DNA from: Panagrolaimus kolymaensis | Taxonomy: Eukaryota > Nematoda > Chromadorea > Rhabditida > Panagrolaimidae | Length of the DNA stretch: 64,000 bases | Assembly: GCA_028622995.1 (NCBI GenBank) | Contig: JAJQJQ010000024.1 | Coordinates: 558,001-622,000, forward strand | Direction of reading: 5' to 3' | Part shown: in pieces, positions 59 through 60,095 of the stretch | How the letters are laid out: each line of letters opens with the position of its first letter | Position numbering within the stretch: the first letter of the stretch is position 1 | Program-made: the position numbers and the translations under genes | The notes under the pieces: generated by a model | Database searches by the model: none | Seen by the model: the letters and a program-made list of their open reading frames with translations, nothing else | Told to the model about the DNA's origin: nothing

Positions 59-3000
59 ACAGTTTTTATAGAAAATTTGTATTTCCAAGAGTGAAATGGC
101 CATAAATGTTATGCCTTCATCTTCAGTTAATTAATTTGTTCACTTCCAATTCCTTCCACTTACGCCAGTTAAAATTTTGTAAGAAAATCAAGCTATTAAT
201 TTTTTTTACAGTTTTTAAACTAATAATTAGTCCCTTTGAAGAATGGAAGTGCAGTTATTGAAAAGAAATTAATCATTTTTTATTTTTATTTGTCTTTTTT
301 CAGTTTATTTACAAAAAATTGACAAGCAATAATTTTTTTATTACAAATGACTCTTTAATTCAAAAGACAGTTTATCGCCAAAAAATTTTGATGTTCCACA
401 AAAAAATATTAAAATGAAATTAAATTTATGATCATCTAAATCCAGTTTAAAAACATTATTAAATTTATCGTGCATTTGTCAAAGCAATGAAAATTGTTTA
501 AAAAAAGATTTTATTGAATTATAAGCTATGCCAGTTATGAAATATATCTAAATTTTTATTAATGAATACTTTTTTGACAAAACTTTTAAAGAGGCTCAAG
601 TTTTACTTAATTTTTTGTGTAATAAAAATGCTATGAAATATTAACTTTCCCTAAAGTTATACAGTTTTTAAATATTTATGCTAAATTTTTAAGTAAAGTT
701 GTTGTGAACAGTTTTACAAATATCGAAAAATAAAGAAAATGTTTATAATTAAAAGTTTTTGAAACTCATGAGAATTTGGTTCAAGCAAAAAATTGTTTTC
801 GTGTATTTCAATTTTTTTTTTCAACTTAGATATTCGTCACTCAGTTTAAATTTTGAATAATAATTAATTATCTTTTTAGATTTTCTTAAACATAGCAAAA
901 TAAAAAAATCGAAAAATGAACGGCAATAGTTTTAAATTTTACTACCATTTTTTCAATATTTTCTTTATTCCCCCAATTTTACAGTTTAAATGGAGTTATA
1001 ATTTTTTTAAACGCCTGCTTGCATTAAACTATCCAGTTTGTTATTTAAAAATTAAAATGGTGATGTTCCACAGAGAAGAAGAAAAAAATTAAAAATGTTT
1101 AATTTTCTTCTCAATGTCAACACAAAAAAATATTGGTTCCAAACACAGAGAGATGATGCTTGGATGCTTTGTTTCATGTGATGAAGAAAAAAAAACGAAA
1201 TGCATATGGAATTATTTTTGTTATTCTCACCCATGTTTGCATTTCCGCAATATTTTTTTTTTGATGAGCAAAAATAAAAAAAAAGACAATTGAGTTTTTT
1301 CTTTTCTCCATATTTATTATTTTTGTTGGAATATATTAAATAGCTTCGTTGAGTCGAATGCTGTTATTATTATTATTATTGTTTCGGGGAGTTTTTTGAA
1401 TTGCGTTTTTAATGACTTTTTTTATATTTTGTTTTTAACAATAAACTTGAGACATATTAAATTTTGAAGAGGCATGTTTTATTGTAAAATAAAAAAAGGA
1501 AATTATTATTATAGCGTCTGAAATGTCATTTTTCAGTATCTTCAACTATTTATGCAGTTTCTTTTATTTTCTGAAATTGTGGTTCTTAAAATTTTACTTT
1601 CTTCGAAATCATCAATCAGTTTTTAAATGATCGTTGTAATGCAAATTGCAATTTGCAATAATTAATATTTTATTGAGTTTTGCTATTAAAAAGTTAAAAT
1701 TCTTCCTAAGATTGCCATAAATCAATTCTTTTTACAGTTTTTTTAAAGAAGAATTATAGAATTTAATCTTAATATTCAATGATGGTCAGTTTTTAAATAA
1801 TATTATGGATCCTCAGTGATTGTGATTATTCTACAGCATTTTTTTTAAAACTAATCAGTTAAAAATGTCATAAACTTTGGATAGACATTATAATCAACAG
1901 TTTTTAAGCTTTAAAATTTTGCATGTCATTTAAACTATCCTAGAAGCAGCAGATAGTCGCAATGTTTCACACGCACTTTTAATATTCAACAGTTTTAATA
2001 TATATTTTGGATGTTCAGTTAAAAACTTTTTCCTTTAAAGCATTAATAGAAATAATGAATATTATTGGGAATTAAAACAAAGTTTAATATTTAAAAATTT
2101 TCGATTAAACATTTTAAATCAACTGCAGTTTTTATGATATTCAAAAGGCCGAATAAGAACCTCTATTGTGGTAGTTTTTTTTTAACTTTATGGCGTCGTT
2201 TATATAATTTAAAATTTTTCTTAGACTCCTTTTTTAAACAGTTTTAAAACATCTTCTTTTTTTTTTAATTTTTCGCAAGCACTATCATTTTCCGAACGAA
2301 ATTGAATTGTCAGTTTTTTATTCATTTCTTGCAAAAATAATATATTTTTCAATAAAAGCATTTTTAACTTTTTACATTTTAATAAGGAGAATGGAATTTT
2401 ACTTTACTTAATATTTCCTGGTGTTCTCTTTCCGTCCACAGTTTTTTCTTTCCAAAATCTAAATTCTTTTTCAAATTTAAACCCCACCCTTATTACCAAA
2501 GCTTCAGTTTTAAATCACAATATATATCCAAGTTTAAAATGCATTTTTCAGTTATATTTATAAAAAATCTCTAAGAGCAAAATCTCTTATGGTAAAGATG
2601 TTTTTGCTCATGTTTATCCCCTATGAAATTTTTTACCAGACAGTTTTAAAATTTTTTTATATTAATTTTGTGATAAAAAAAAATACGCAAAACATGGCAG
2701 TTTCCAACATATATTTGTATTTTCAGTTTTTTACTCTTTCGAGAAATTTTGAGGAGAGAATTTTTGAATTTCGTTTTTTTTGAAAACAATGAGCTTAATT
2801 GACATTTTTAGCCACCCAAAAAGAAGCACAGTTTATTTATTTTTTTCGTTTTTGAAATATGAAATTTTATTAAATTGAAAAAATGACTCACGTCAATCCT
2901 CAATTTTAAAATTATTTTATACAGTGTTTAATAATATTTGGCATTTATTTTTATAAACAGAGTTTTTTATTTCCCTGCCCTGCAGTCAGTTTCACAACAA
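59..3000 (+). repeat. CAGTTT motif array, block 1a
   Basis: No gene is supported in the first 4.36 kb. The stretch to about 3.0 kb is filled with copies of CAGTTT on the + strand (often CAGTTTTTA or CAGTTTAA), roughly one per 60-100 bp by eye, with very few copies of the complement. The base or so before each copy is usually A, C or G, ending a slightly GC-richer run, and the bases after it are an A/T tract. The units are not otherwise alike, so this is not a tandem satellite. Short open frames here are low-complexity and lack coding character. Confidence 0.8.
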
Positions 3001-4283
3001 CCATTTATTGTTCCATGTTTAATTGGATCATTAATATTCTTTAGTCCAATTCTCTTTATTTTTTGCTCGTTATTTTTCCCTTCATTAAGCATTCCATCCG
3101 TTGTTTCTTTATTTTTTTTTCTTGTCATCTCTCATCAACATTTTTTTAGTCTTGTTTGCGTTTCATTTAACTTCATTATATATAAAAAAAGCGTGCAGCT
3201 ATTTTCGAGAAAAAAATAATGATGCTTCTTTTCTTCTTTTTTTTCTTGCATTCATGCATCTGTGTTAATTTTCGTCACACTTATTTAACTAAACTAATAT
3301 ATATAAAAAGAGCGAGCGAAGAAAATATTTGCACAAAAATAACGGTGGCATTTTGGCAGCAACGAGGAGCATCGAGCATTAATTGAGTTTTCTTGACACA
3401 CGTCTTTTTCTTCTTCTTTTTTTCCGTTGGCATTTTTATTTTTTTATATTTTTGCAAATACCAACGAAACCTAAAAAACTGAAACAGAAACAAAAAAACC
3501 GAAAAGATGGAAATGAAGTAAAACCAATCCCAACCAAAAAAAAAAATAAAACTAACCAACTGTTGTTAACAGAATGCGTTCCAGCTGCTTCGCCGCTGCC
3601 ACGTCCATGGTTTTTTTTCTTCTTATTTTCACCCATTTTGAGTTTTTTTCTTTTTTGGCTTCAAGGCTTTTGAAGCTTTTTATGCTTTTATATGTATGTT
3701 TTCTCACACTTTTTTTTAATTTTATTTTAACTAACTAAGCTTTTTTTTACTTCACTTCAAAATCCAAAAAAATGAAATCTCAGTTTTCATCAGCAAGAAA
3801 GAAAAAAGTGTGTGTGTATGTTTTGAAAGGCACACGCATTTAGGGCAACAAAAAAAATGGAAGGAAGGGTGTTTGGTTGGTAGTAAGTAAGTAAGCAGTA
3901 TGTAAAGAAATGAAGAAAGAAATAATAAAAAAAGGTTATACTTAACACAACTTTTTTCTCTTTTTTTTTGATATCATGGTTCTTTTTTCCTTTGGGAGTC
4001 CAACCAATATTCCTTTGAGGGCTTATTAAAAATTAAAGGTTATGTTTTTGTGAAAAAAAAAATATTTAGTTTTCTTTTTTTGAGGGGTTAAATACTTGTT
4101 ATTGTGGCTAAAACGCACTTAGCACTTTATTTAATAAATGAGTTAGTGACTGTTGAAGGCTACTATTTGATAATAATAATAAAAATTTTACTTTTTCTAA
4201 AAGCACCCGATTTTTATTTTTATCGTATCCTATTATTATTATTTTGATTATTAATGAATGTTTTCTGAAGTTGAAGTTCTTGC
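3001..4283. other. gene-free AT-rich stretch with sparse motif
   Basis: Poly-T and poly-A rich DNA with several overlapping open frames on both strands, all low-complexity (Phe, Lys and Leu runs) and without splice structure or family signature. Only one or two CAGTTT copies are present, so the array is interrupted here. It may hold the promoter of the gene starting at 4364, but no specific site is convincing. Confidence 0.5.
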
Positions 4284-6240
4284 CAGTTTTTAATTTAAAT
4301 TTTAAAAAATGATATTGATGCCATCATTTATTTCTACAAAATATATTATAATTATTTTTTTCAATGATTACATTGCCTCCTCCTCCCTCTTCTTCCCATC
4401 AGTCTCACAGAAATTCCAATAATCTAGAACCCGGGTTACCTGGGTTTATTGGAGATGACAATGAAAATAATAATAGTCAACAACCAAGTTCATCGTCTCA
4501 TCAAACTATAAATTTATTTCAACAAAGCCAAGTTGCACTACAATATAATTATTCTGGAGTTCAATATCAACAAAGTCCAACTAGAGTTGTTCGATTACCC
4601 ACTCCTCCACCTTCATATAATGCAACAGTGGGAACTAGAATGAATATATTTAGCCCAAGTCGTGGAAATTCTAATGGAGCTTATTATGGTAAGTAAAAAA
4701 AGTTTTATAAATGGTTTTTGGATGGGAAAATAAAACAATTTTCTTTATACCCAGTTTTTTTCTTCTAAAAATATTAAAGAAAAAAGACAGTTTAAAAATA
4801 AACATTACAAAACTTTTTTGCACAGTTTTTTTTTTTGCAACCATAGAGCGTAATAAACTTACTTAGTTAATTAACAATTTTTCCGTGTCATAAAATTTAC
4901 TCTTATTTACGAAAACAGTTTTTTAAATCCAAAATGCCTATATTCGGTCAGTTTAATATTTTTGCATAAATTTCAAAAAATTATTCATTTCAGTTTTTAA
5001 GAAATTAATAATGAATTTATTTCATTAGAAATTTTAAAGTATCAGTTTTTACCAGCAAATCGCAAAAATTAATTTTAGGTTTATAAAAAATATATACCAC
5101 CAAAATAATAAAAACTTTTAATCTCATATGAATGATGTTACTCAGTTTTTAAACCATGTTTAAATTAATTGCAATAACAGTTTTTTTTATTCTTTTGTTA
5201 AGTGATTTAAATATTTGCTTTGAAAAAAAAGAGAGTTCAGTTTTTTTTATTCCCAAAAAAAAATTTTCAGCATCTGCCAATGGAATGGTACAATTTGTAA
5301 ATAATTCAAATCATAAACAAATTTGTACGCCCAAATGTCGCATTGGTATTCCTTTTATGTTTATGTTTCTTTTTGCTGTGCCTTTTATAATTTATTATTA
5401 TATTATAAAATAGTCGTTCTGTTGTGGTGTCTCCCTTATTTGTAATTAAGAAAATGAAATATGCATTATTTTTAAAAAATTCGGACTCTTTGGTTTTATA
5501 ACATTTCTAAAAAATGGGTGGCTGAAAATCGGCAAACGTCATATTTCTGAATGATTTTTAAAAAATTTAATTAAGTGTGGCGTTTGCCATTGAAAAAAAA
5601 ATTACAATAAAAACTCAGTTTAAATTTTAAAATTATTTAAGTTATAAGGTTGGTGTTGAAAACTTAAATCAGTTTTAATTATAATATTTATTTTTAATAT
5701 TAAAAAGGGCATTTTAATGCACCCTAAAAATTATCTGGAAAAATCTGAACAGTTTTTCCTTGCAACTTGACTATTGAGTTCGATATTCACAACTCAGTTT
5801 AATAATAAAAAAAGTGATATTAAAATTAGAAATAAAAGAATCGACCTATCTTTTGCCAGTTTTTAAAAAATCTTTGAGAAATTTAATATTTTTTTAAGGC
5901 TTAAAATTCAATCAATTCTCTTATCCATTTGAATGACCGTCACTCGCTTGTTTATAAAACTTAAACAAAATATCCTTTATTTAAAAAAATTCATTTTTGT
6001 AAATTTTATATAAAAATAATTAAAATTAATTTTTTGATCTTTTTTGGTGCCAGTTTTATTTTTTAAAGATTTTTATATTTTAAATCCTACGATCCAGTTT
6101 AAACCATGTCGTAGCCATTTTCCCCGTATTTTACACAGTTTTATCATAGCTTTATTAATAATATCTTTGTTATAACGTTTTTTTATCAATCAGTTTTTAA
6201 TTTAGATGAAACATCACATTCGATGTCAGTTTTTAAGCCC
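4284..6240 (+). repeat. CAGTTT motif array, block 1b
   Basis: About twenty CAGTTT copies by eye between 4.75 and 6.23 kb, all on the + strand. They occupy the intron of the gene at 4364-5413 and its 3' flank. At the base composition of this DNA a given hexamer of this kind would be expected less than once in the same length. The motif resembles a nematode 3' splice site (TTTCAG), but its use in both introns and intergenic DNA, and its opposite orientation elsewhere in the window, argue against that being its role. Confidence 0.8.
4364..5413 (+). CDS. small PPxY tail-anchored membrane protein
   Basis: Two exons (4364-4688 and 5271-5413) give about 155 residues. Exon 1 encodes a Pro/Ser/Gln/Asn-rich, presumably disordered region with a TPPPSY motif (PPxY class) near its end. 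Exon 2 encodes a short linker, a Cys-x3-Cys and one hydrophobic helix ending four residues before the stop. The intron is phase 1 and the junction reads YYA-SANG, matching the YYV-NASG junction of the gene at 8775. The helix at the extreme C-terminus predicts a tail-anchored topology with the PPxY in the cytosol, where WW-domain ubiquitin ligases could bind; that is inference from the motif. No orthologue recognised. The intron carries about ten CAGTTT copies. Confidence 0.7.
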
Positions 6241-7351
6241 CTTGCTCAAATATGGTATTTATTTTAAATAAATTCCGTTTTTCTTTTTTTCTGTTTTGAC
6301 TTACTTTTTTTGTTTCTTTCCAACAAAAGTCAATTAAAAAAAGTTAGTTAATTTTTTCACACTTTGCTTTCAATATTTCCTTCCACCCTCTTACTTTTCT
6401 TCATTTTTTCCTCCTCTTTTTACGCAAAAAAAGCCGGTTAAAAGTAAAAAAAAGAGGCTCTAAAAGACGATGCTTCGATGCTGTGATGCATCTTTAAAAG
6501 TTTCAAATTATTGACACTAAACACTTTTTTATCGCAGTTAAAAAAAAGAAAAAAGAAAAGGACTAAAATGCATAAAGACAGGGCTTTACTTTTTGCTTCT
6601 TCTTCTTATTTAGTTTCTGATGTTCTTGTTACTCGGCATAGGCGTGACTCAAACTTAACTTAGTTTCTCGCGAGAAAAAAAATTTATTTAGTAGTAGAAA
6701 AGAAACATCCGTAACAGAAAAACTCGAGTATAAGAAAAAAAACATTTGTGTGTGGGTAGTCGCACAAAAAAAAAAGATAAAAATGTTTAGTGCTTATTAT
6801 TATTATTTTTTTGGCTTCCCCATAAAAAGCATGAAAGACCAATAGAGACAATTAAAAAAGAGAAAAAAAAACTTGGAATTAATTATTATGATGAAGTAAA
6901 GGTCATAAAAAAATGTCACACATCGAGTGCTTTTTTTCCTGGCTGGTATACACTGGACTCAGTTAATTTACTGTTATTATTATTTCGATGTTTATTACTT
7001 CAATCGCAGTTTATTATTAAAATTATTACTTATTTTCAAGTCCACCTCCTCCACCAAAAAAAATGAATGTACGTTTGGAAATTTTGAAAATACGTATGTT
7101 TTTTTTCTTTTTTGATTTCACCACACCAAATTATTTATTTTTTTATTTGTAACCTTTTTTTCCAACCTATTAATTATTTTTTCTTTAAAGATAAGAAAGG
7201 TGAAAGGCAGCACCCAACCTTTTGTTGTTACCATGGGAATGTAACGCCACCAATAAAAAAAAAAGGGTTAAGCAACTTATTTTTTGAAGGCAAAGTTAAG
7301 GTAGGAAAAAAAATAGGGCAGCAGCCATACAATAATATCCCATTAATATAC
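6241..7351. other. gene-free stretch, motif-poor
   Basis: Nothing supported. Two short + strand open frames at about 6.93-7.42 kb are rich in Phe, Tyr and Lys and have no start context, domain or splice partner. CAGTTT copies are nearly absent, in contrast with both flanks. Confidence 0.5.
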
Positions 7352-10300
7352 CAGTTTTATTTTTTTAAGGCGTACTTTATTTATTATAAAAAAAAGAAGG
7401 AAAGACTATGGCTTTAAAAAGTCAATCCTTGACCTAACTTTTAATTATTAAATTTTTTTCTAAGTTTTTTATTCCCACGAGGGCAGCCACGTTTTTTTTG
7501 GCGAGAATAATAATCTTGTGTGTGTGTTTTGTTTCATACGCGGAACTTAAATTAAAAAAAAATTTTCTACAGTTTAATGACATTTAAAAAATATGTCTCA
7601 CAGTTTTTATATTTTTAATAAAATGACTCGAATGATAGTAATAAAAAAACCGAAATTAAAACAAAAAAAAATTTTCAACAAAAAGCTTATGCGCCCGTTT
7701 TAAAATTGATAAGAATAAATCCCTTAACTAACTTCAATTGCAGTTTTTTCTTTCAAACTTTTTAAATTTTGATCCAACCACAAAAAGGTTACAAAGCCAC
7801 AGTTTTTTTTGTTGATATTAATATGCTTTTTAATTATTCTCTTATTTTTAAATATATTATTAAAATTAACAATTTTTTATATTTAAAAGATTCTTAAAAC
7901 ATGAGTAAAAATTTCAAAAGATTTATCAGTTTATTCCATCTTGAAATTTTATATTAAAAAATTAGTTCCTTTTCGTTTCTCCCTTAAAGTTCAGTTCGCC
8001 TTCTAGTTTTACTTTATTTTTCCATCGCTTAAACTTGCTGACAGTTTTATAAAATCGCTAAAAATAAATCCTACCTACTATGATCATCTGCAGTTTTTCT
8101 TTCTCCTAAAAATTTGGTGTTTAATTTTGACCCCTCAACAAAGATTTTGCATTGGAGCTGCAGTTTTCTTTTTATTTGATTTCATTTATTTTTGATGTTA
8201 TTTATTTGTAGTTTTTTACATTTTAAAAACTTTAAATGTATGAGTAAAAGTAAGAGAGATAACTCAATGGCGCAGTTTGTTCAACATTGATTTTTAAAAA
8301 AATTAGTATTCTTAACTTTCTCCACCTTCAAGAGTTTTATTTCATTTTTTCAAGCTAACAAACTTACTCTCCTGCAGTTTCTTTAAAAAATTTAAAAATC
8401 CCTTCTACAACGCCTTATGACAGTTTTTATTTCTTTCTTGCAAAAATGTGGTATTTAATTTTAATTCCGCACCAAAGATGTTACGATGTTGTGGAGTTTT
8501 TTTATTTATTTCATTTTTCAATTTCATATACTGTTTTCCTTTATTATCGCCAGTTTTTTAAACTAAAAAAATTCTTAAAACATGAGTAAAAAAGTTTTTA
8601 AAAAATCATAAAGCTGAGCGGCTGAGCACAGTTTAATCCTTCTTGAAATTTAAGAAAGAAAGTATCTTTCTATTTCCATGTTTCAATCTCAGCTACAGTT
8701 TTTTTATTTTTACTAAACTTTCTAAATACATTATTTTCAGGTAATTGAGAATACTATCGTTCACGTTTAAAAAAATGCCCCTTTCACCTCCGCCATCATA
8801 TGATAATTGTGAAGCTCCACCATTACCCGCATATCCGAATCTTCAAAATCTTAATTACGATCATGTAAGCAGCAACAACACAAATACAACAGATGGCAGC
8901 AACAATGATCAACATAAAGGTGGCCCACCTTCTAATCCTCATCCACATCAGCCATCAATGCCAAATCCAATGATTCTACCTCCATCAGTTCCACCAGGAG
9001 GAGTTGAAGGTCCACCCATGCTTCCGCCATATCCATATCCTCCACCATCTCAAGCCCCGCCATATCATAATTATAATGTTGGATATTATACTCATATGAA
9101 TGGAATTGTTGGTGGTGGACCACTTGGTGTAATGCAAGGTGGTGGTGAACCACCTTTTTGTCAAGGCATACGTGCAGGTGGCAATGGACGAACCACACCT
9201 TTAGGTGGACGATATTATGGTAAGTTTTTATTTATTATTCTAAGTTAAATTCAGTTTTTTCCCATAAAAATTTTTTCCTTTGGTAATGCTTTAAAAATTT
9301 CCATTTAAACATCGCCGTGCAGTTTAATTATGCTTTATTTTAAATTTTAGCTTTGAAAAACAAAAAGGACTGAATCCTCAGTTTTAAATAAGTTAATTGC
9401 GTATTTGACATTTTAAGTTACTTAAAAAAAATTTAAATTTCAAAATAAAAACGCAGCATAAAGTTATGCAGTTTTTTTACAAAAACATATACCGAAAAAC
9501 TACAGTTTTCTTTTAGAATTGAAGATTTAAAATAATTTCCTTAGTTTCTTATTAAAAAATAATAAGTTGATCTACAGTTTAATAATGCATATTTAAAAAA
9601 TGTGTGCAATATCTAAATAAAATTGTTTTGGATAAAGCCTCTTAATATTTTAAAGCAAAACATCTTCCCGCAGTTTATTTTTTGATATTTAAATTTTTAT
9701 CTTCAAAAGAACCTGATCGCAGTTTTCAATAAATTAATTCAATGATTAATATTTTTTTAAACTTTAAAATCGCTTGAAAAAGGTAAAACTGTTAAAACAA
9801 GCTTTATAAAAATAGCCATTTTATTCTCAAACAGTGGGGACACAGTTTTTTTTTAAGATAATGAAATAAAAAATAAATTTTACTGTTACCCATTAATTAA
9901 CATGTCGCACAGTTTTTAACTAAAAAAAATATGATATTTTCTGTGTCAATTTTATAATCACAATAAGTATAATCTCAAAAAAAAAAACAATTTTATTTTT
10001 CAAGATCCAAGATAAAAATAATTTCTTAGTTTTTAACCACGAAACTCTCGTGTTCCCAGTTTTAATCTTTAAAAAATGTTTTTTTTGTAGAAGAATTTTT
10101 CAGGTTTTGTTTCAAAAGGACTCTGTCATGAGTAATTTTCCTGCTCAGTTTTTTTTTACTATTTCCAAGGTTAAAAGAAAATTAATTTTTTTTTGTTATT
10201 AAAAAAACTAAATAATTAAAATATATTTTAATGAAAATCAAGGCAGTTTTTGATGCTTTAAATTTTTTTTTTCAGTGAATGCCAGCGGCTACATTGAACA

Positions 10301-10600
10301 TTTAACAGCTGAACAATATCAAAATCGACGAATTGTTCAAGCCATTGCAACCGTGTGCGCAATAATACTCATGATTGTTGTGTTTTTTATTTTTGTTAAA
10401 CACATTCGAGGAATTCGTTAAAAAATTATTAAAATTTAAATATATATATTTTATTTTTTTCATATCACGCTTTAATTTTTCAGTAACTATGTAATAAATT
10501 AATAAATGATTTTTTTTTATTTTGTAAAATTTTCTTGACTAAAAAAAGGTTTAATTAATTGCCTTTTTATATTTATTATTTTTTATTCACAGTTTTTTGG
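7352..10600 (+). repeat. CAGTTT motif array, block 1c
   Basis: Dense + strand CAGTTT copies across intergenic DNA and the roughly 1.06 kb intron of the gene at 8775-10421. Nearly every copy here directly follows a short mixed-base run, for example before copies near 8.09, 9.32 and 9.67 kb, and is followed by T and A runs. Exon 1 of the enclosed gene is free of the motif. A single late copy lies near 11.45 kb, after which the array stops. Confidence 0.8.
8775..10421 (+). CDS. PPxY tail-anchored membrane protein
   Basis: Two exons (8775-9219 and 10276-10421) encode about 196 residues. A TTTCAG acceptor ends at 8740, 34 nt before the ATG, and looks like a trans-splice site. The N-terminus reads PLSPPPSYDN, so the PPxY motif is within the first ten residues. 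The rest of exon 1 is rich in Pro, Gly, Asn and His. Exon 2 starts after a phase-1 junction (GGRYY-V) and encodes a linker with LTAEQYQ, one hydrophobic helix and a basic tail (KHIRGIR). The exon-2 linker is clearly related to that of the gene at 35195. Inferred to be a cytosol-facing adaptor for WW-domain partners; no orthologue recognised. Confidence 0.75.
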
Positions 10601-10627
10601 GTTTATTAAATTTTATAACGTTACAGT

Positions 10628-11200
10628 ATGCCTCTGCAACAACCATCAACCAAAGAACCACTTTTGCCTATCCATCGGCCGCCCTCAGCAACCAATATGG
10701 CTCAAACTTCATTTACGAATGAAGGATTTGATACTTTTCCAGAAGGTGGCACGGGTTATTTTAATCCAGTTGAAACTCAACCTCCATCAATTGAAGATAC
10801 GTTTTATTCTTCAGAATCCGATGATTATAATGAAATTGATGGAAATATTATTGATGATGATGACGCGGTTTTTCCGTCTCAACGATTAATTGAAAATCAA
10901 CGTAAAAGACTTCAAAATCGAAATCATGGTTCATCAAGAAGATTTAATAATCATGGTTTTGGATTTGGTGGAAATGGCGGAAATGAGCGATTTTCAATTA
11001 TGCTTGTTCAACTTCCAGATGAATCATGCATGCTTAAATGTATGACAGGAACAATAATTGCAACATTAGGAATTATAATATTTATAATTATTATATATTG
11101 TATGAGAATTCGAGAAAATACTGGATTACCCATGGAAATGGATGATTTTACTCCATCGAATCCTGCAAGTGATATAATGGGAATGGGAACAGGATTTTAA
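10628..11200 (+). CDS. single-pass membrane protein, no PPxY
   Basis: One exon, 190 residues. An acceptor-like TTACAG sits one base before the ATG. The first 125 residues are polar with an acidic stretch (residues about 62-80, many Asp/Glu) and a Gly/Asn/Arg run. One strong helix follows a Cys-containing segment (near residues 138-158), with about 30 residues after it containing a PMEMDD acidic patch. It lies 207 bp after the previous gene on the same strand and has the same general plan, but it lacks PPxY and the phase-1 intron, so its membership of the family is uncertain. No function is recognised. Confidence 0.6.
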   Translation: MPLQQPSTKEPLLPIHRPPSATNMAQTSFTNEGFDTFPEGGTGYFNPVETQPPSIEDTFYSSESDDYNEIDGNIIDDDDAVFPSQRLIENQRKRLQNRNHGSSRRFNNHGFGFGGNGGNERFSIMLVQLPDESCMLKCMTGTIIATLGIIIFIIIIYCMRIRENTGLPMEMDDFTPSNPASDIMGMGTGF

Positions 11201-14846: not shown

Positions 14847-14850
14847 GCAC

Positions 14851-37989: not shown

Positions 37990-38110
37990 TAGGGTTGTTA
38001 AATTTCCGGTAAATTCATTTTCTTGGTAAATTTACCGGATTTACCAAATTTTAGTTCAAAAAAAATTTTCGTCGGTAAATTACCGGTAAATTTACCGAGG
38101 CGCAACCCTA
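37990..38110. mobile_element. 121-bp hAT-like MITE with TSD
   Basis: Termini read TAGGGTTG at the left and CAACCCTA at the right, and the interior is made of repeats of GGTAAATT/AATTTACC in both orientations. The flanks ACTGTGTC are identical at 37982-37989 and 38111-38118, an 8-bp target-site duplication. The target lies inside an AAACTG array unit, so the insertion duplicated the end of the motif. No coding capacity. Confidence 0.85.
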
Positions 38111-38240
38111 ACTGTGTCCCATTTTTCTTGACTTTTGACGTAATTATTCGTGACGTCAAATTTTTTTATAATATATTATTTAACTGCACAATTTTTTCAT
38201 TGCCGGTTTTTTTAGATTAACTGAAAACTCATTTACAATT

Positions 38241-41043: not shown

Positions 41044-42394
41044 AAAATAAATAAATTGAAATTAAATTTAACTGAGTCTTGACTGAATTCGATATTTTCA
41101 CTCTGAACTTTAGTCAACAAAAATTTTCAGCAAAAATAAATTTAAAAATAACTAAGCTGCAATTATCAGTAACTGGTAAATTGACTTGGAAGTGACACGA
41201 AAAATGAATGTTTTTTTGTACGAAAATTTTTTGTACAAATTTTTTATTCATTTTTAAACTGGGTTTTGATAATAACTTTTGTAGCTTTCTTACATTTAAG
41301 ATGGCTAACTATTATTTTATTAATTAACTGTGTCGATTTTTTTATTATATAAAAACTGAATTACGAATTGCTTTAAAACTTAGATCAGTGAAAACAGAAG
41401 ATTTTAAATTTTTTTTAGAAAACTGTTCATCATATTTCAAATGGGATACGATTGTGATCAAACAAAACAAAACTTCGTAGAAAAAAAATACCAAAATAAT
41501 TCTATTAATTAAACTGCATAAAGTTTTAATAGGTCAAGAAGGGTTTGATAGCAGAGACATACTATAAAAAAGTAATTTAAAAACTGTAGCCATGGGCACA
41601 TGTGCTGGAGCATTAAATAAAATGTGAATATTCAATGGATGCCTTGAAATAAAATAAAAAATATTGCTAAAAACTGAGAATGATGATTTTTATTTGCTTG
41701 TCTACAGATTATTTTTTTCTTTCATAATATTGAATAGCATAAATGCTATTACAAGAAAATTTAATTATAAACTGTGTTTTAATATGCGATTATGTGGATG
41801 ATTATAAGCATTTAAAAAAAACTGTGGTGAAAAATGATCATTTTCGTATCATCAACTGAATGTTTGGATTAAAAACAAAATTATTGCTAATGAAAAAAAC
41901 TACAATATAAATAATTTTTTGTATTAACTAAAGGGTGATTTTTATATTTTATGAAATTAGTTGCAGATATATGGTATTTAAAAAACAATTGATATTTTAA
42001 AACTGTTATCATCTTGTTGATTTGTAAAATTACGTATTTTTTAAAAACTGTGCATTTAAATTTTCAGCTTAAAAATAAAACAAAATTTTAATTGCTGAAA
42101 TTTTTTTTCTCTCGAAATAACCCATTTTAAATGATTTATTGAAGTACGTTTTATTTTCAGGTTAAAGGATTTGAATAATAATAGTGCTATTTCAAATATT
42201 TTAATATTAAACTGAAATTGAGTTTCTTCTGACATTATAAAAAACAGAAAAAAGCTTTGAGCTATTTTCGATCCAGAAAAATGCAAAAAAAAATTTTTTT
42301 TATTAATAACAAAACTGTACAGAATAATTATTTCATAGCCAAAAAGTTATTACAAGAAATTTTAATTTAAAAACTGGTGTTCGTCACTCACATA

Positions 42395-43543
42395 CAGGGT
42401 TTCGCGGAATTGAAAAAAATTCCGCTTCCGCGGAAGGCGGAATTATAAAATTCACTTCCGCAAAAGCGGAAGCGGAAGCGGAAGTGAAAAAAAGGCGGAA
42501 TTCCGCAAAAGCGGAATGCGGAAGCGGAATTACCAAAAAAAATTTTTTTGTTATTATACATATGTACATTTTTTTCCATTATAGTCCACGGTAACGATTT
42601 TAATATTGTATGTGTCTGTATCAAAGCCTTTGTATCCAAAGTGGATAAATTTTATTTTTTCTATATGACGATAATCAAAAGCTAAAAGATTCTTTGAGAC
42701 ATGCTTTATTAATACAAATTTTGACCTTGAAAAATGGGGACTTTAGAGTAAACAAGTGCGATAAAGAGCTTCTTTACTTTAATGTTGCCGGGAAAAGATA
42801 AATTTTGATTAAAAAATTCTTTAATATGGGTAACATGCAAAGATAATGTATTAATGAACAGAGATAAGCCTAGCCACATTATTTTTTCTTATAGCACCAA
42901 AAAGGTTTGTTTTTTACATCTAAAAGCATGTCGCGCTTTCACAATCAAAACTATTTCTATTTTTACAATATTAAGAATTCCTAAATCATTTTAACCATCT
43001 ATAGATGTCATTATTATTTAAACCAATTTTAACATCAATATCCCAATTTTGAAATTTAAAAGAATGCCAAACGATTTATTTTAGCTATTTTTGATTGCAA
43101 AATTGGTTTTAAAAAGGGCTAAAGAACATTTTGTAAGAAACTAACTTATTTCTAATGCGCAATAAAAATAAATAAAAAAAAGATAGAAAAGATTCTCCAG
43201 GTACGCTAAAATAAAGAAGATCCGATTTTTAATTTAAGTTTGTCTTACCCTACTGATTTCATCCGTTACAATGTACTGAAAAAAAATTTGATTTGTCATT
43301 GTAAAAATGTTATACGCATTTATTATTTTTAAAGCCCTCTTTGGGCATTTGATCGCAGCGTTTTTTTTTATCAAACCCCCGCAAAAAAATGTAAAAGCTT
43401 TTGTTAAATATTTTTAAAAATTTGTTTAATTCCGCTTTCGAATTACGCAAAATTTTGCGGAATTCCGCGGAATTTGCGGAAGTCCAAAAACATGCGGAAT
43501 TCCGCAAAAGCGGAATGCGGAAGCGGAATTCCGCGAAACCCTG
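42395..43543. mobile_element. 1.15-kb hAT-like non-autonomous element with TSD
   Basis: The left terminus CAGGGTTTCGCGGAATT is repeated exactly, inverted, at the right end, and the flanks CTCACATA (42387-42394 and 43544-43551) are identical, giving an 8-bp target duplication. Both ends contain arrays of TTCCGC/GCGGAA repeats. The interior is AT-rich with no transposase. The CAGGGTTT terminus is shared with the element at 13581, so the two belong to one broad family with different sub-terminal repeats. It interrupts the AAACTG array, and the interior lacks the array, consistent with later insertion. Confidence 0.88.
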
Positions 43544-43551
43544 CTCACATA

Positions 43552-44047
43552 GCTTGGAAATTATTTTAGAAAACTTTTGGGATTACTATTTCCATCAAAT
43601 AAAACAAAATTTTGTTGAAAAAGAAAAAATGAAATAAAAATCTTTTTTTTATTGATAATTTGCTTTTTTCTTTCTCACTCGTTTTTAAGAAAAATAGGGC
43701 AATCTCGAGAGAAAATGTCATCAAATTATGATTTTCTCTTTCTTTTTTTTTAACATGCGAAGAAAAAGATAAAGATAAAGGAAAAATTTTCATATCTCTT
43801 CGACACAAATTTTAATAATGAGAGAAATCAGGTTATTTAAAAAAATAATGAAACAAAGAAAAACTGAGATTCATAATTTCATGGAATCATAAAATGAGGC
43901 GGGGTCCAAAAAATAATGGATTTAAAACTGTTTAAAAGGAATTGATCTTGTCTCAAAAATATTCATAATTTTACTTTTTTTCTTGAGAGCCTTTTGCTTT
44001 TAGAAAAAATTATTAAACTGAAAGTAATTCTTTTTAGGAAGGAAAAG
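43552..44047 (+). repeat. AAACTG motif array, block 2b, collagen upstream region
   Basis: AT-rich DNA with AAACTG copies near 43,860, 43,925 and 44,014, continuing the block after the transposon. No gene is supported. It presumably contains the promoter of the collagen starting at 44048, but no TATA box is evident. Confidence 0.5.
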
Positions 44048-45159
44048 ATGACGAAAGTCGCCGCTTTTACAGCGTCAGCTCTTGCAATTGGGACTGTTTT
44101 TATGACGATCATCTTTGCATCCATGATTAGCAAAGAAATATCTTTCATCCGTGAAGAACTTACTGATGAAATGGGTATTTTTAAGGTTAGTGAGTTAAAA
44201 ACTGGGTTTCATTTTTTAATTTGAAATTTAATTATTAGACTGAAACCAATGAACTTTGGAATGATATGGTTAAAATGAGCGGTGGAAATCGTATTCGTCG
44301 TCAATCATATGGTGGATATGGAGCTTCTGCACCTCAAGCTTATGGAGGAAATACTGGTGGTGGAAGTCCTCCACAATTCCCAAGTGGACCAGGAAATGGT
44401 GGATCTCCACCTCAACAACCTGGTGTAGGTGTACCACCACAATTTGGAAGTCAAAGCACTCCTCCACAAGGCAGTGGACCACAAGGATCTGGAGGCAATG
44501 GAAATGGCGGCAAATGTAACTGCAATACAGAAAACACATGCCCCGCTGGACCACCTGGTGAAAAAGGTTTATCTGGACATGATGGACTTGATGGAATTCC
44601 TGGTCAACCTGGTAAAGATGGAATTAGTGGCGAACATACTCAAGCTCAACGACAACAATTTGGTGAATGCTTTACTTGTCCTCAAGGCCCACAAGGACCT
44701 CCTGGAACTGATGGTCGTCCAGGAGCAAGAGGAATGCGAGGTAGCAAAGGCCAACCTGGAACTCCAGGACGCGATGGACAACCTGGCTTCCCTGGATCTC
44801 TTGGACCTCAAGGACCTGTTGGTGCACCTGGAGAAACTGGAGCTTCCGGCCAACCTGGAGATGATGCAACTAGCCTTAAAGGTTTACCCGGAATCAAAGG
44901 AGAACAAGGTCCAACTGGAGGAGTTGGAGATATTGGTGCACCTGGAGAAGAAGGACCTCTTGGCCAACCTGGTGAGGAAGGAGAACGAGGCCCACCCGGC
45001 AAAAATGGTGATAATGGCGATAATGGAGATGCTGGGGAAGCAGGAGAATCAGGTGAACCTGGTATTGATGCTGAATATTGCCCATGTCCTGCTCGAAGCT
45101 CTGATAGCCAGGTTGGAGCTGGCGGGGAAGGACATCAAAATGGTTATCGTCGCGCTTAA
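44048..45159 (+). CDS. cuticle collagen
   Basis: Two exons (44048-44185 and 44239-45159) give about 352 residues. Residues 1-45 form the nematode cuticle collagen N-terminal domain with a hydrophobic segment (ALAIGTVFMTIIFASMI) and EISFIREELTDEM, continuing through NELWNDMVKM. A furin-type site (NRIRR) follows near residue 67. A Gly/Pro/Gln-rich linker with a Cys pair (CNCNTENTC) precedes interrupted Gly-X-Y blocks starting at GPPGEKGLSG. A second Cys pair (CFTC) lies inside and YCPCPAR closes the triple helix. The Cys pattern is that of secreted cuticle collagens, crosslinked in the extracellular matrix. The 53-nt intron contains an AAACTG. Confidence 0.92.
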
Positions 45160-46285
45160 ATAAAGCAACAAACATATGCTTATAAGAATACTGAATTTAA
45201 TCTGTAATTTGAATTTTTCATCATAAATTTAATGTGACAAAAGATTTAAAAAATAAACAATTAAACTGCAAGCTAGCGTATTATTCGAGTTCCCAAGGAA
45301 AAAAAAGAACTTTTTATATTTTTCTTATTAAAACTGTTGATAAAAGCTCACACAAAAAAGTATATTTTCATATAAACGTTATTTAAAAACTGCTTACCGA
45401 TACATTTATCAAAGATTAAACAATTGATGATTTAAATTTAATTATTGAAGATTGTATAAAAATTATAAACAAAACTAAGTTTTACAAGAAAACATTGAAT
45501 AATTTTTTAAACACCATTTTTCAAAGTTTTAAAATTTTCCCAATTTCTCTTTTAAACTGAAGCAGGTCACTATTTGTTGTGGAACAAAATAATACATAGC
45601 TTTCTCTATTTTTAACTGAATGTTCATTTTTCCAGAATAAATTAACTGTTTACGATTTTGATATATTCATCTGTTTGTGATTTCAATTCCACAATAAATA
45701 ATTTCGAAAAACGAATCTTTATAAATAAAAATTAGACAAATATGTCATCTAAGAATCGATTATGAATTTAAAATTTTTATCCTCGTTTTAAACTGTTACA
45801 TCAAAGTTCACCTTTTAATTGTTAAAAAAGTTAATAAACTTCAAACAAAAAAAGCAAAAAGAAATTGCACGCTTTTGTTTTTCACTTTCGCAGTTGCAAA
45901 AAAAAAATCGCGAAGAAAAAAAACGTAAAACTGCGACCACTTTTTTATTAGCAGCATTTTTTTATTTTTTGAACCACGAAGTAAGTCAAAGAAAGAGAAA
46001 AAGAAAACAAAAAGAAAAAGAAATGAAATAAAAAAAAAGACTCATTTGCCTCAGGCGTAAAAAGTAAAAACACACGCATATACTTGAACTAATTTTTTTG
46101 ATTTTATTATACTTATTTCAAATTAATAGCAACAATCCGGAAACAGTAATAGTGTTTCATTTTTATTGTCAAGTAGGCCACAATATAACCTGTTTCAAAT
46201 CATTTTTGGCCGAGTATATAAAGGTAATGGAAAAGTTTTGTATCTTCACATTTCTGTCGAGTTTCTTCCTTTCCCCACCATAAAG
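45160..46285 (+). promoter_or_regulatory. intergenic AAACTG array end and collagen promoter
   Basis: The left 0.8 kb carries the last AAACTG copies of block 2 (45,262 to about 45,930). The motif then stops. A TATATAAA box at about 46,215-46,222 lies roughly 70 bp before the next collagen's start codon. A 70-codon Lys-rich frame at 45,819-46,031 is low-complexity. Confidence 0.55.
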
Positions 46286-54335: not shown

Positions 54336-57300
54336 AAACTGAGTCCATACTTTCTTCACTTTTTTTTTTCTAAACAAACGCATCATTGTGTGTCTTTCTT
54401 CCCATTTTTTTTCTTCTCTCAATTGTGCATTCAAAAAATAAAAAAAGCGCGGAAACTAGGAAGAATTTTTTATTTCGTTCACTTTTTTTTCTTCTTCGCG
54501 AATTTTTTTTTGTAAGATTATTATTTTAAAAAAAAAATGCTGGCCTTTGTCCAATTTGTTTGTTTGTGTGCGTTTAAAAATTGATGATTCATTTTTTAGT
54601 TACTAACTTTTTTCTTTGCTTTTACTTTTGCTGAATTTATTATTTACAAAATTTTATTTTGCAAAAAATAAGAAGAAATTGTTTGAATTGTCTTTTTGGG
54701 TATTAAAATTTTTTAACCTTTGTTTTTTGTTTTTGTTGAAATGACGGCCTTTTTGAACAAACCCAAGCAAGAAATATTTATTAATACAATTTTTTATTTA
54801 TTTTTTAAACTGAGTTATCTGAGTGTTTTTTTATAATTTTTAATTAGCAGAGTTGAAAGAGTTTCATGTCGCTATTAACAAAAAACTGCAATGAATCTTT
54901 TCACCTTCTCAAAACATAAGCAAATAAGATTATTCATTACAAATAAGCGCCGCAATAAAAAAGTTTAAAAATTTTATTTTGATTTGTAAAATCACTACCG
55001 TTTTTTTTTTGTAACCATTTTGTCTTTTTATATTATTTTTAAACTGTGGTAGCGTATTTCGTTGCCAACTTTTCACATGGGTGCTAAACCAATATCGGAT
55101 TGTACTTTTATAAAACTGAAGACACAGGATATTATAGGTTTAAAAACAAAAATTAATACGAAAGCCAATACATATATTTTTTTTATTTAATGTTAAACTA
55201 TACACGCGAACTTTTTTCTTCATTTATATTGTCTTATATTTTGAAGATAATAATTCTTTTCCCGTGGACTTTTATTATCCATTTTTTAAATTTTAAAGAA
55301 TTCTAAATTTGGTTTGAAATTATTATACATAAAGTTATAACTGTCATGAAGTCTTGAGCAATCTAATGGCATTCATTTTCTTTTTTGTTGGAACAAGAAC
55401 TTCAAAATTTTTAATTTAAAAAAAACTGTTGATAATATTTGCTGCATTGTTTTTCAATCAATTTAGCAATATCATTTAAATAAAAGCTACATGAGCCGCT
55501 CGAACTGAATAAATAAAATTGAGTAATTTGGATTAAGTTGTAACCCAAAATCTATTTTTTTATTGGCAAAATTTCATTCCACCAAAACACTGCAAATTTT
55601 CTTTCAATCTTTGGCACACCAAATTTATGCTATTTTTATTCTTACATTCGTTTGATTTATTTCTTTTTTCTTTTTTTCTATTCTTTCATAAAACTGCGGC
55701 GGATTTGGAAATCACGGAGAATAACCTTTTATGTCTACAAATTTCAATGTTTATTATTTAAAAGAAAGAAATGGATGATGACATTTTTGAAATCAACAAA
55801 GAAAATAAATAAATAAAGAAAGATGTAAAAGGATGCAACAACAACATTGTCTTTGTTTGAATGGTTTGGAAGAAGAAGGAAAATTTTGCGCCATTGGATA
55901 CTGTTTATGGGTTTATTTTTATGATTGACTAAAAATTCTTCTTTTTTCTTTTCATTTTTTTAAACTGAGAGTTGAAAACTAACAAGGTTAGGGAAAATAT
56001 TTTAACTGTACAGGAAAAAACAAAGTTGGTGCTTAAGGGGATATAAAATATTAAAAACTTTAAAAAAATATTTTAAATTAAGTTTTTTAACTGCCCCTGA
56101 AACTTACATTTTTGGTTTGATTTCACGATACCATTTAATACTAAATATAACTGAACATCACAAATTTAATTTATTTATAACTTTTCTTCTTTTCTTTTTT
56201 TAATACAATAGCCATATTGTAAAAATTTTTACAACTTTTAATAAGTTTAAAACTGTTCTTCTTCGAGGGATCATTAAAAATATATTGAATTATAGAATAC
56301 GGTAATGAAAATCTTTGAGTAACTGAAAGCTTGTAAAATTTGGAAGGATTAAAATCTAAAGATAATTTAACTGACATTTTTTATGCAAGATTGTAATTGG
56401 ACTATTTGAAATTAGTATTTATATTATTAACTAATGTTCCGCGTGGAAGACGCCCATGAAAGTGACTAACCTTTTTTATGATATGTATGTACTTTCCCAT
56501 GCTTGCATGATTTTGGGAGTTGTCTTTGCATATTTTTAACTGTTTTCGTGTGATCACACCCTTTTTGAACGCCTAATTTACGAATTTATCAACAACAAAA
56601 AAACTGATGTTCCACTTTCCCATGAAAAAAAGAAGCTTATCAAATTTTTAGCATTCTTCGTTAGTTGCAAAATTAGTAATTTAATTTTTTTATTGCATTT
56701 TTTTATTTATAAGAAACTGAAGGACGGGAAGATATTTTTTTAAAGAGTAACTGTGAACGAGGCTTAGAGGCCTTTATTTCAAAGCCATTCCTCTAACCTT
56801 TTTTTATTATTCCTTGTTTTTTTTTGCTTCAATCAATAACCAAAAGAAGAAGAAAAAAATCGAATGCGCGCCGCTTTTTTCTAAACTTTTTTTACAAATT
56901 ATTTTAACTGCCATTTTTAAATTGTTCTCTCCTTTTACATTTTTTTTGGTTTCAGAATAAAAAATGGAAAACAATAACATTCCCCATCAGCATCCTCCAG
57001 CAGTTCGATTTCGAGTTGTTACGGGTTCTGAAAATGTTGCTCAGCGTCCACAACCTTTACCTCAACAATCGCCTATGCTATCTTCTCAACCTCAATTTTC
57101 TCAGCAACAACAACAAAGATTTCGTTATGTTCGGCCATTAACTGAAAGGATATTGCTTTATCATAGACCCCAACAACAACCAGGGCAACATCATATAATT
57201 AAAAGTGGTATGTCTCAAAATAATTTTTTTAAAACTGAAGTCGTTTTCAATAGTTTGACTTTAGAGATGCCATTTTCTCAACCACTTCAATCAATTCAAC

Positions 57301-60095
57301 CTCGACGAATTCTTCGTCCACCAATGACACGAGTAATTCGTCCATTACCAATTCCACCAACAAGAACAAATAATAATACTTTGGAAGATAATAAGAAAAA
57401 ATTAATTAATATTTTAAAATCTTTTCTTAATCGCTGTTCCAATACTCCTGAAGCAAACTTACATCAAATGGTTATTGCAACTGAAGTAGGTTTGAAAATT
57501 TTTTTATAAATTAAAAGGGTCATAATTTAAACTGTACAAACAAACTAAACAATGGTATTTTTAAATAATTAATAAACTGGGAACGGTTAAATTAAGTTGA
57601 AAAAACTCGCGAATATAAGCGAGGGATAAATCATAGTAAAATTAAAGAAAATCTTTACTTATAAATAACCAACATTTATTTTTTTGAAATAAATTAACTG
57701 TTGAAAAATTCACTTCTTTATGTTGGGTGATTGCGTTATATAGTAATCAATAAACTGATAGCAATAGCAAATAGTTGCAAGACAAAATTTTGACTACTTT
57801 TATTTTTCCAATCACAAATTAATAAAACTCTTGAGTACATATTGTGGAGAAACTATAATCAGGAAAATTAGGCGGAACAGAATTTATCGGGCCAACCACC
57901 ATATATTTATTTTCCTTGTCACACCAAAAGTGTGACACGACCAAATTTTTCTCAGTGTAGATAATTTAAAAAAAACTGTGTTCTTAAGATCCATTTTTAA
58001 ATAAAAATTAAACTGATAGTTTTTGGATATTTAAAATAGCGTATTTTTTAAACAGTTATCGATATTTTGATAAGCAAACTGAATTTCTTTCTACCTTTTT
58101 TTCAGCAATATCTCAAAGGCGTTGTTTCAACTCATGAATACATAAACATTCTAAGCCAAAATATTAAAGGTGTTCGAGAAACTTTAACAAGTTTCTTGGA
58201 ACTTTATATTTATGCTGTACGAAAAGATATTCAATGTAAAAAACTTACGATTGAAGAATGTATTCCATTTCGAATTGTTAAAACTGGTGCTTCACCTCAA
58301 ATGAATACCCAGCCAATTTATAGTAATTCTCCATTAGCTGCTAATTCACCCACGCAACAGCAACAACAACAAATGATTCAAACTGAGCCAATGTCATCAG
58401 TTCAATCACAGCAACAACAACAATCAGTTGGAAGCCCCATGGTAACTATAAGTGGATCGAATGGATATAATGGAAATAAAACTGAGGTGATATCCCAAAA
58501 TGGTAGTGGAGGTAGTGGTCATGCATCTCCACAGATGAGATCAACGACGAATTCGCCACATTTTCAATTTATAAATCAAAATAATCAAAACCAAAAAAAT
58601 TATGGAAATATTGAAAGTCCAAAAATGGAAATTAAATCTCCACAAAATTTTGTCCCACAACAACTAGACTTCCAGCAACAACGACCGTCACCTTTAACTA
58701 CAACATCGGAGACAACGGAAGGTATCGAACAGCAACAAAAACAACCTTCGCCTTTAGCAACAGAATCAATGCAACCAACAACAGATTTTCCAATGGAAAC
58801 TAATCAAACTTATTTTTATCAAACACAAGAAATAACTGCTCGATCTCCTATAGTTTCTCAAGAAACAACAGATCTTAATCTTCCAGGGCCATCAACAACC
58901 CAAATTCAAAACCAAGAACCTGAACCTGAATTATCTTTTCACTCCACTGAACTCCCACTTTCTCCATCGTTGCACGAAAAAACAACCATGGATTCCACTC
59001 TAATTGATCCAAATGCATTTGAAACATACCTTCGAGCTAAATATCCTAATTTCACCATTGAATCCCCAGCTTTTTTATCGATCTCAGAATTTCTTGAAAC
59101 TAAACTTCGTAAAGTTGTTGAGGATGCTGTAACAGCAGCTGAACATCGATCAGAACAATTTCGAAATAATCCAAATTTTGTGGAAGTTGAAAATCCAAGG
59201 CAACAAATAAAAATGATAGAAAAAATGGAAAAATTACAAAAACAACGTAAAATTGAAAGGGAAAAAGAAAAGGAAGCTTTGGCACAACGAAATCGAAATG
59301 GTAAAACTGATGTCACTAAAACAAATGAGGTAAGTCAAAAAACTGAGATGAAAAATATGGAAGATGTCAAAAATAAGGAATTTTTTTGAGATATTAAAAT
59401 TTAAAAATGAGTAAAGGTGGTAATATCTAAATTTTATTTAAACGGAATATCTGGAAAAAAAACTTTTAATATAAACCAAATATTTTTAGTTTCTTAAAGT
59501 TCATGAAGAAAAGGAACTTAATCGTGATGCCAATGAAGCAGCCATTGCTGCACTTGGAGGAAATAAAAAACGTCCATGGCAAAAGGGAAAGAAAAATGAG
59601 AAAGGTGAAGGAGGAGCTCCATCAGCAGCTAAAAAAGTAAGAAATAATAATTTTTTTTTTAAACTTTGTAACGCATTTATAATGGATAAATTTTTTTCAG
59701 AATTTTATACCTCGAGGAAAACAAATTACAATGAAAGATCTCATATTTGCATTTGATCGAGATTATTTTGCTCAAAATTCTTTAGTATATCGTAAAATTG
59801 TTTATGGTTTATTTAATAATAATTAAAAAAATAAATAAAACTGAACAGGAATTTCAATTAACAAAATACAAAAAAAAATAAATATTATAAAGCAAAAAAA
59901 TATTTTAATTGAGATAATTGTAACAGAAAAGCGTCAGAAATCTACTTTATTTTTATGAATTTTAAAAACTGTTGCTAACTGTTGGCGTGAATCCATAATC
60001 AATTTTGAAAGCTTCATAATGCATGTACATATATAAGTAACGGCAGCACCTTGAAACTCCAAAACCGTACTTTTTAACTGCGTGTGTAAAACTGT
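54336..60095 (+). repeat. AAACTG motif array, block 3
   Basis: AAACTG and near-matches (TAACTG, GAACTG) on the + strand recur from 54.34 kb through the gene-free stretch 54.3-56.96 kb, the first TAF4 intron (57.49-58.11 kb) and the TAF4 3' flank to about 60.09 kb. The context is as in block 2: an A/T tract before, a more mixed run after. Five or so copies also fall inside TAF4 exons. Nothing else is seen in 54.3-56.96 kb; the short open frames there are T-run artefacts. Confidence 0.78.
56964..59826 (+). CDS. taf-4: TFIID subunit TAF4 homologue
   Basis: Four exons (56964-57485, 58106-59329, 59490-59636, 59701-59826) give about 672 residues. TAF4 pairs with TAF12 in TFIID and helps position RNA polymerase II. 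A Gln/Pro-rich N-terminus is followed by a TAFH-like helical region split by the first intron (INILKSFLNRCSNTPE, then VVSTHEYINILSQNIKGV). A long Gln/Ser/Pro/Thr-rich region precedes the C-terminal module: AFLSISEFLETKLRKVVED, AAEHRSE, NPRQQIKMIEKMEKLQKQRK, and finally ITMKDLIFAFDRD, the conserved TAF4 C-terminal block. The first intron (620 nt) is far longer than the others (64-160 nt) and is full of AAACTG. Exons contain the motif too, read as Lys-Thr. Confidence 0.85.

Follow-up and report, generated by a model that had tools for sequence, protein, structure and literature searches.

Nematodes of clade IV have to defend the germ line without Piwi. In Caenorhabditis, the 21U-RNAs are 21 nucleotides (nt) long with a 5' U and a 5' monophosphate and are bound by PRG-1, an Argonaute of the Piwi clade; they follow the motif CTGTTTCA, which is related to the snRNA promoter element, at a fixed distance of ~40 nt and share its strand. 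In Drosophila-type clusters of Piwi-interacting RNAs (piRNAs), long directional precursors are cut into many guide RNAs. The clade IV nematodes are held to have lost their piRNAs, and a loss of Piwi from the clade is reported (PMC6436959, PMC4323106). The nearest published system to the one considered here belongs to a clade IV species, Strongyloides ratti, in which two clusters, 1 and 2.7 Mb in size, give rise to RNAs of 21-22 nt with a 5' U (21-22Us), with A/U-rich sequence upstream of the loci and no Piwi (PMC9203780). Here, we analyze a 64,000-nt stretch of the genome of Panagrolaimus kolymaensis (C23:558001-622000, hereafter the window), a triploid, parthenogenetic nematode of clade IV (PMC10374039). 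The window carries oriented arrays of a short motif, AAACTG, each copy of which is followed by a 20-nt body. Judging from sequence comparisons, we suggest with a probability of roughly one half that such arrays provide guide RNAs to a clade IV nematode in which no Piwi is detectable, and work in the manner of 21U piRNA clusters.

Oriented Arrays of a Short Motif

The assembly comprises 265,843,910 bases in 807 contigs. Within the window, AAACTG (or, on the opposite strand, CAGTTT) is concentrated in three blocks:

40..10595, minus strand: block 1, an array of AAACTG/TAACTG units (motif counts; homologous array on contig C20 aligned)
34720..45933, plus strand: block 2, an array of AAACTG/TAACTG units (motif counts)
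54336..60094, plus strand: block 3, an array of units (motif counts; aligned with C20)

Taking the means of a first-order Markov model as expectation, block 1 (counted over 59-10600) holds 78 CAGTTT (6.9 expected) and 2 AAACTG (3.2 expected), block 2 (35870-45940) holds 60 AAACTG (5.8 expected) and 2 CAGTTT (3.1 expected), and block 3 (54330-60100) holds 26 AAACTG (3.4 expected) and no CAGTTT (1.8 expected). The 23.6 kb between blocks 1 and 2 contain six copies in each orientation (10.2 expected for AAACTG, 10.9 for CAGTTT); the 8.2 kb between blocks 2 and 3 contain two AAACTG and three CAGTTT (4.4 and 2.4 expected). The initial annotation of this DNA had claimed that the motif far exceeds its compositional expectation in three blocks, each ruled by one orientation, and these counts bear it out, with minority-strand totals of only 2, 2 and 0.

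A one-base variant, TAACTG, shares the strand preference. In dense one-kb segments totalling 77 kb, which were picked by the strand purity of AAACTG and without regard to TAACTG, the variant occurs 133 times on the array strand and 5 times on the other, and none of the remaining 17 one-base variants is clearly biased in the same way. The signal is therefore (A/T)AACTG, the T form making up ~19% of the units (133/711). With this form included, the median distance between neighbors in the dense parts is 73 bp. The block averages, one motif per 135, 168 and 222 bp in blocks 1, 2 and 3, are lower in density than the one copy per 60-110 bp of the initial annotation. Block 2 itself was confirmed, but its start had been placed too late, at 35.9 kb instead of 34720. 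The blocks consist of AT-rich introns and intergenic DNA; sequence resembling open reading frames (ORFs) makes up 15.2% of their length and holds 15 of their 218 motifs.

Anatomy of a Unit

Positions in a unit are numbered with the motif at 0..+5, the body at +6..+25 and negative values on the AAA side. The profile was drawn from those motif copies that have at least six neighbors within 1.5 kb (n=809). The guanine plus cytosine (GC) fraction is ~0.16 at -18..-1, 0.29-0.40 at +6..+12, just past the motif, 0.33-0.34 at +24/+25, 0.25 at +26 and 0.18-0.24 at +27..+49. The A/T tract on the AAA side and the less AT-rich run on the CTG side, both described from the outset, thus hold over the aligned copies. 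Within the body G is favored at +7, and the dinucleotide GG is found at +24/25 in 92 copies, against 18.7 expected; the same peak appears among TAACTG copies (18/190) and among copies on contig C3 (16/153). Start-to-start spacings below 28 nt are rare (21/961), longer distances declining smoothly, and the unit is therefore ~28 nt long, with a 20-nt body inside it.

Beyond this frame the units have little in common, in line with the initial statement that they are otherwise unrelated and no satellite: a 12-mer is shared with another body in 59 of the 809 bodies, compared with 184 of 809 flanking 20-mers, a difference due in part to the higher GC content of the bodies. There is no positional signal at -70..-20 in the 809 copies (0.012 bits or less). 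A microRNA-type hairpin precursor was not found, the mean z lying between -0.17 and +0.25 in four placements (150 of the 809 units, mononucleotide shuffles) and no Rfam match reaching the gathering threshold in the window. PATC introns were likewise dismissed, since dense DNA has no peak at the ~10-bp A/T periodicity that marks them. A Ruby-type arrangement, with an RNA ~40 nt downstream of CAGTTT, left no signal at that distance. The kinship to the Caenorhabditis motif that had been proposed on the strength of a common GTTT is not supported: no fixed feature is seen on that side, and the 20-mer directly adjoins the motif at its opposite end.

Conserved Motif, Fast-Changing Body

Homologous copies were aligned for three array regions: C20 with the window at 1-11254 and at 52.6-61.7 kb, and C23 with C20 at 2.34 Mb (94, 95 and 92% identity). 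Over all 364 unit-directions, the two directions of an alignment not being independent, the motif has a substitution rate of 0.030, compared with 0.171 at +6..+11, ~0.12 at +12..+25 and 0.078-0.080 in the flanks. In the 223 unit-directions that lie in diverged tracts (flank divergence >0.04), the corresponding rates are 0.036, 0.244, ~0.17 and ~0.12, or 0.3, 2.0 and 1.4 times the flanks; this filter lifts the flank rate, and is thus conservative for the body excess and flattering for the motif contrast. A paired test confined to a single direction (n=107) places +6..+23 above the flank (p=2.4e-7) and the motif below it (p=7e-13). By cluster bootstrap, the excess for AAACTG is 2.03x [1.74-2.37] at +6..+11 and 1.42x [1.25-1.60] at +12..+25; TAACTG gives 2.51x [1.79-3.27] and 1.74x. 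No body interval exceeds 1 in any of nine control sets of 11-41 unit-directions each. The excess starts at +6, fades at +25/26 and is confined to one side of the motif; at -80..-21 there is no conservation. A separate comparison, C3 with C18 (172 unit-directions), repeats the pattern (motif 0.047, body 0.163-0.218, flanks 0.118-0.123).

Fourfold-degenerate sites in five ORF segments, taken from two of the three aligned regions, differ at 24/419 (0.057), and in block 1 alone the rates are 0.144 at +6..+15, 0.082-0.083 in the flanks and 10/156 at fourfold sites. As the flank rate is no lower than the fourfold rate, the flanks are not slower than near-neutral sequence, and the body outpaces the two of them. 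The increase extends to all six classes of substitution. Wholesale replacement of bodies was rejected, because the per-unit counts in the body (mean 3.7 with a variance of 6.8) are spread much as in the flanks (2.6 with 5.8). Of 283 motifs in diverged tracts, 241 are retained, 32 are substituted away and 10 are scored as gaps; this retention is a lower bound, since the gaps include mere differences in A-run length. Three units serve as examples:

9483..9508, minus strand: motif AAACTG at 9508-9503, body at 9502-9483, identical in the C20 homologue; the predicted 22-nt RNA would be 9504-9483
4896..4921, minus strand: unit with an altered body, motif at 4921-4916, body at 4915-4896 (C20 alignment)
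36673..36698, plus strand: motif at 36673-36678, body at 36679-36698 (from the sequence); the putative 22-nt RNA would be 36677-36698

The body at 4915-4896 has 8 substitutions relative to C20, between flanks that are identical as far as shown; the single gap in its motif falls in a run of six A, and C20 still has AAACTG.

Along window 1-11254, stretches identical to C20 alternate with clearly diverged ones, the pattern that gene conversion or loss of heterozygosity would leave in a triploid asexual. Two other stretches, 42387-43551 and 14048-14846, are 74-93% identical to C20:1.04 Mb, a different place of the homologous contig, and are possibly a mobile element or a duplicated gene.

Genomic Extent and Strand Coherence

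Neighboring motifs less than 150 bp apart are on the same strand in 985 cases and on opposite strands in 64, a count that includes homologous copies of the same arrays. C20 was sampled at 20 evenly spaced places of 10 kb (0-2.48 Mb). Half of the samples (10) are dense, holding 58-101 motifs apiece, and these are nearly one-stranded except for two that contain a single switch. Both clear switches (C20:390-400 kb and 1820-1830 kb) are convergent, the units pointing at each other. The scarcity of minority-strand motifs in dense samples (2 vs 99 and 2 vs 95, for example) points to a directional determinant at the level of the block. Extrapolation, with ~8 chance motifs per 10 kb assumed, gives ~9,000 units on 0-2.48 Mb of C20, in a single haplotype.

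A genome-wide search for motif pairs at a start-to-start distance of 26 nt returned 157 matches, against 99 for the same pattern reversed. Such a spacing is rare and the counts are consequently low, although the restriction to certain contigs is still visible: among the 100 matches listed, 84 lie on C3, C5, C18, C20 and C23, that is, on 5 of the 807 contigs. The even genome-wide spread of the hexamer that the initial annotation regarded as fatal to its proposal is thus not what the genome displays. The matches listed for C3 are concentrated at 6.8-9.45 Mb (13 of 15) and those for C5 at 0.02-3.4 Mb (23 of 24), and sequences shared among the listed matches link C3 to C18, C20 to C23 and C5 to C20, which is what homologous contigs should give. 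Eight 3-kb loci were chosen because each contains a pair of motifs. Five of them, at 6.8 to 7.9 Mb of C3, are full arrays with 29-37 motifs each, nearly one-stranded; only 5-6 motifs are present in the one on C2 and in the two remaining C3 loci (0.05 and 2.1 Mb). Clustering on the Mb scale in introns and intergenic DNA, a feature of Ruby-type 21U loci, is accordingly present here, and the AT-rich intronic and intergenic setting proposed at the start can be extended, the units being further gathered into Mb-scale regions.

Argonaute Genes

A search of the genome with PF02171 gave 143 exon matches on many contigs. In all 16 pieces that were inspected we found SEGQF/Y, SEGEF or SDGEF, in a place that in Piwi proteins such as PIWIL1 is occupied by GDGQL. 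As a Piwi query we used the PIWI domain of human PIWIL1, searched exon by exon. Calibrated in the PDB, it scores 695 bits with Piwi-like protein 1; the remaining full Piwi chains give 251-409 bits and AGO2 gives 137. No Piwi-grade match was found in the genome, where the best of 57 matches (22-41% identity, cross-matched in part) reaches 71 bits at 26%, on a bit scale that differs from that of the PDB search. The matches with 40-41% identity are pieces of 56-57 residues on C47, C1 and C7 that adjoin ALG-like exons. The failure to find Piwi agrees with its loss from clade IV, as reported in PMC6436959 and PMC4323106. Since no Piwi gene was found in the genome search, the term piRNA in its strict sense does not apply, and the "piRNA-like" label of the initial annotation must be read with that restriction. 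The Argonaute set is otherwise large, with members that on inspection by eye are ALG-like, ERGO/RDE-1-like and WAGO-like, and for several of these two or three homologous copies are visible; they are candidates for the partner of the units.

Neighboring Genes

Among the ORFs of the window are some that resemble collagen, TAF4, calpain, RPN6 and Sec23/24, which mark the DNA as that of an animal. Two ORFs bear on the blocks:

10619..11200, plus strand: long ORF that borders block 1 on the right (ORF list)
58052..59389, plus strand: TAF4-like ORF (PF05236) inside block 3, on the same strand as the units

Relative to plus-strand ORFs, the units are sense in blocks 2 and 3 and antisense in block 1, where they oppose 10619..11200, 8745-9248 and an exon read by eye at ~4.35-4.69 kb. 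The copies of the motif within the TAF4-like exons of block 3 are probably there by chance. Three plus-strand ORFs in or beside blocks 1 and 2 (8745-9248, 34119-34652 and 38184-38561) have N-termini rich in PPPSY/PPPY and may be a local gene family; the second ends in an apparent transmembrane segment.

Discussion

A conserved signal beside a 20-mer that changes faster than neutral sequence would, on these comparisons, be best explained by a transcribed guide. We propose that blocks of ~5 to 10 kb or more may be transcribed in one direction into long precursors, in which (A/U)AACUG after an A/U tract would act as a processing signal. A cut ahead of the U (AAAC|UG) would free one RNA of 21-22 nt per unit, its 5' U at +4 and its 3' end probably at +24/+25, where the GG and the fall in GC lie. 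The most variable part, +6..+11, would then be guide positions 3-8. An Argonaute other than Piwi, from the AGO or WAGO groups, might then bind the RNA, with transposons as the likely targets, and selection may be the cause of the fast change. The body excess could reflect selection for guide change or transcript-linked mutation, and either would imply a short transcribed unit. The suggestion that a lineage-specific motif accompanies a unique, GC-richer run gains indirect support, in so far as the run behaves as a short RNA product would, from the conserved motif and the hypervariable 20-mer. A fuller version, in which a Piwi-independent, genome-encoded repertoire of many thousand motif-defined units keeps its signal while diversifying selection acts on the guide, most of all on the seed, we put forward more tentatively, as somewhat short of an even bet.

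The same product would result if each unit were a small autonomous promoter with its own RNA polymerase II start, the A/T tract melting and AAACTG serving as initiator, so that transcription began at the A of +2, the mature 5' U lay at +4 and the polymerase stopped where the body yields to A/T. The A/T at -18..-1 and the low GC after ~+28 do resemble the 21U pausing signature, and 21U precursors begin 2 nt upstream of the mature RNA, according to PMC6436959; motif conservation and body excess fit equally well. Independent promoters, which the initial annotation favored, need no common strand, yet neighbors agree 985 to 64 over whole blocks. They would also have no fixed element at -70..-20 to rely on, would read AACT at +1..+4 where the YRNT initiator calls for otherwise, and would depend on a six-base signal that occurs elsewhere at background level and can hardly define a start alone. 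Since neighbors are same-stranded whichever way the genes run and opposite motifs are rare, we prefer a directional precursor and consider independent promoters unlikely. Clearly less probable still is synthesis of the RNA off the opposite strand, starting near +25 and ending with CAG, with CAGTTT and the T/A tract as a 3'-end signal. The steepest GC fall is on the CAGTTT side (from 0.29-0.40 to ~0.16), as at a pause or end site, and the GG at +24/25 would read CC near the 5' end; such an RNA, however, would have no fixed 5' nucleotide (complement of +25: A 0.35, T 0.31, C 0.27, G 0.07), it would vary most at the 3' end and not in the seed, and the ~19% of units with TAACTG (133/711) would be without the T run.

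The arrays might also be a signal at the level of DNA, without any RNA, that serves for example chromosome pairing, dosage, recombination or replication, the mutation peak arising from protein binding or strand breaks. Contig-restricted regions on the Mb scale and strand-oriented blocks would suit such a role, and mutation could account for the increase seen in every substitution class. A binding site is not expected, however, to have a one-sided rate peak that begins near +6 and ends near +25/26, nor a GC-richer body with a GG peak and few spacings below 28 nt, and the 10-bp A/T periodicity of PATC introns is missing; we regard this possibility as quite improbable. Ordinary intron or transposon sequence (a satellite, splice or polyadenylation signals, a dispersed repeat) would accord with the location of the blocks in AT-rich introns and intergenic DNA. 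The comparison of units and both homologue comparisons largely refute it, and it is scarcely credible: little is common to the units beyond the motif, their orientation in the window is independent of gene strand, the motif is conserved when the body is not, and no Rfam match at the gathering threshold accompanies them.

Several observations weigh against the proposed guide-RNA repertoire. Strand coherence was observed only on C20, C23 and the five C3 loci, themselves preselected by a motif pair, and in the C3/C18 comparison the control hexamers are somewhat high at +6..+11 (47/348 = 0.135, against flanks of 0.105 and 0.089). The GG at +24/25 is no better conserved than GG in the flanks (12/20 vs 435/676 kept), which rules it out as a conserved contact. 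A body complexity beyond composition was sought and not found, homopolymer avoidance being no greater than composition explains. Local mutation, as well as selection, can give fast change, and an A/T tract at every unit would also suit an autonomous promoter. Panagrellus redivivus, another member of clade IV, is reported to be without piRNAs, in a work cited in PMC4323106. The authors of the Strongyloides study looked for a motif upstream of the 21-22Us and found none (PMC9203780), and a later review repeats this (PMC10676819).

With the S. ratti loci (PMC9203780), the units share membership of clade IV, Mb-scale clusters, A/T-rich sequence upstream, no Piwi found and, as predicted from the T at +4 and the body end at +24/25, a product of 21-22 nt with a 5' U. 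Unlike those loci, which overlap heavily and for which no motif was found, they hardly overlap, carry a strict motif and have bodies that change faster than their flanks. Like the Ruby-motif 21U loci of Caenorhabditis, as described in PMC6436959, they are short, number in the thousands, gather in Mb-scale clusters within introns and AT-rich intergenic DNA, and combine a conserved short motif with a GC-richer, here putative, product followed by low-GC sequence. They differ in that no PRG-1/Piwi was found, all units of a block tend to read from a common strand, the presumed start of the RNA lies next to or inside the motif and not downstream of it at a fixed distance, and YRNT is absent, the pyrimidine missing from the AACT around the predicted 5' U. 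Pristionchus-type intronic piRNAs also lie in gene introns; in the same source (PMC6436959) they are dispersed through the genome in nearly equal orientations and Piwi is present. The long directional precursors that we propose would recall Drosophila-type clusters, from which the arrays would differ by one predicted product per motif and do differ in that no Piwi was found.

Searches of the literature on piRNAs or Piwi in Panagrolaimus and Panagrellus, on the Strongyloides 21-22Us, on clade IV small RNAs and on selection in 21U-RNAs gave, by title and abstract opening, no earlier report of such arrays. The units look like an unrecognized store of guide RNAs in a roundworm in which no Piwi was found. 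If this is true, a 21U-like genomic architecture with a motif of its own would represent a replacement or a remnant of the piRNAs, the arrays might supply a possible genomic grammar for the Strongyloides 21-22Us, and the diversification of guides would be measurable from DNA alone.

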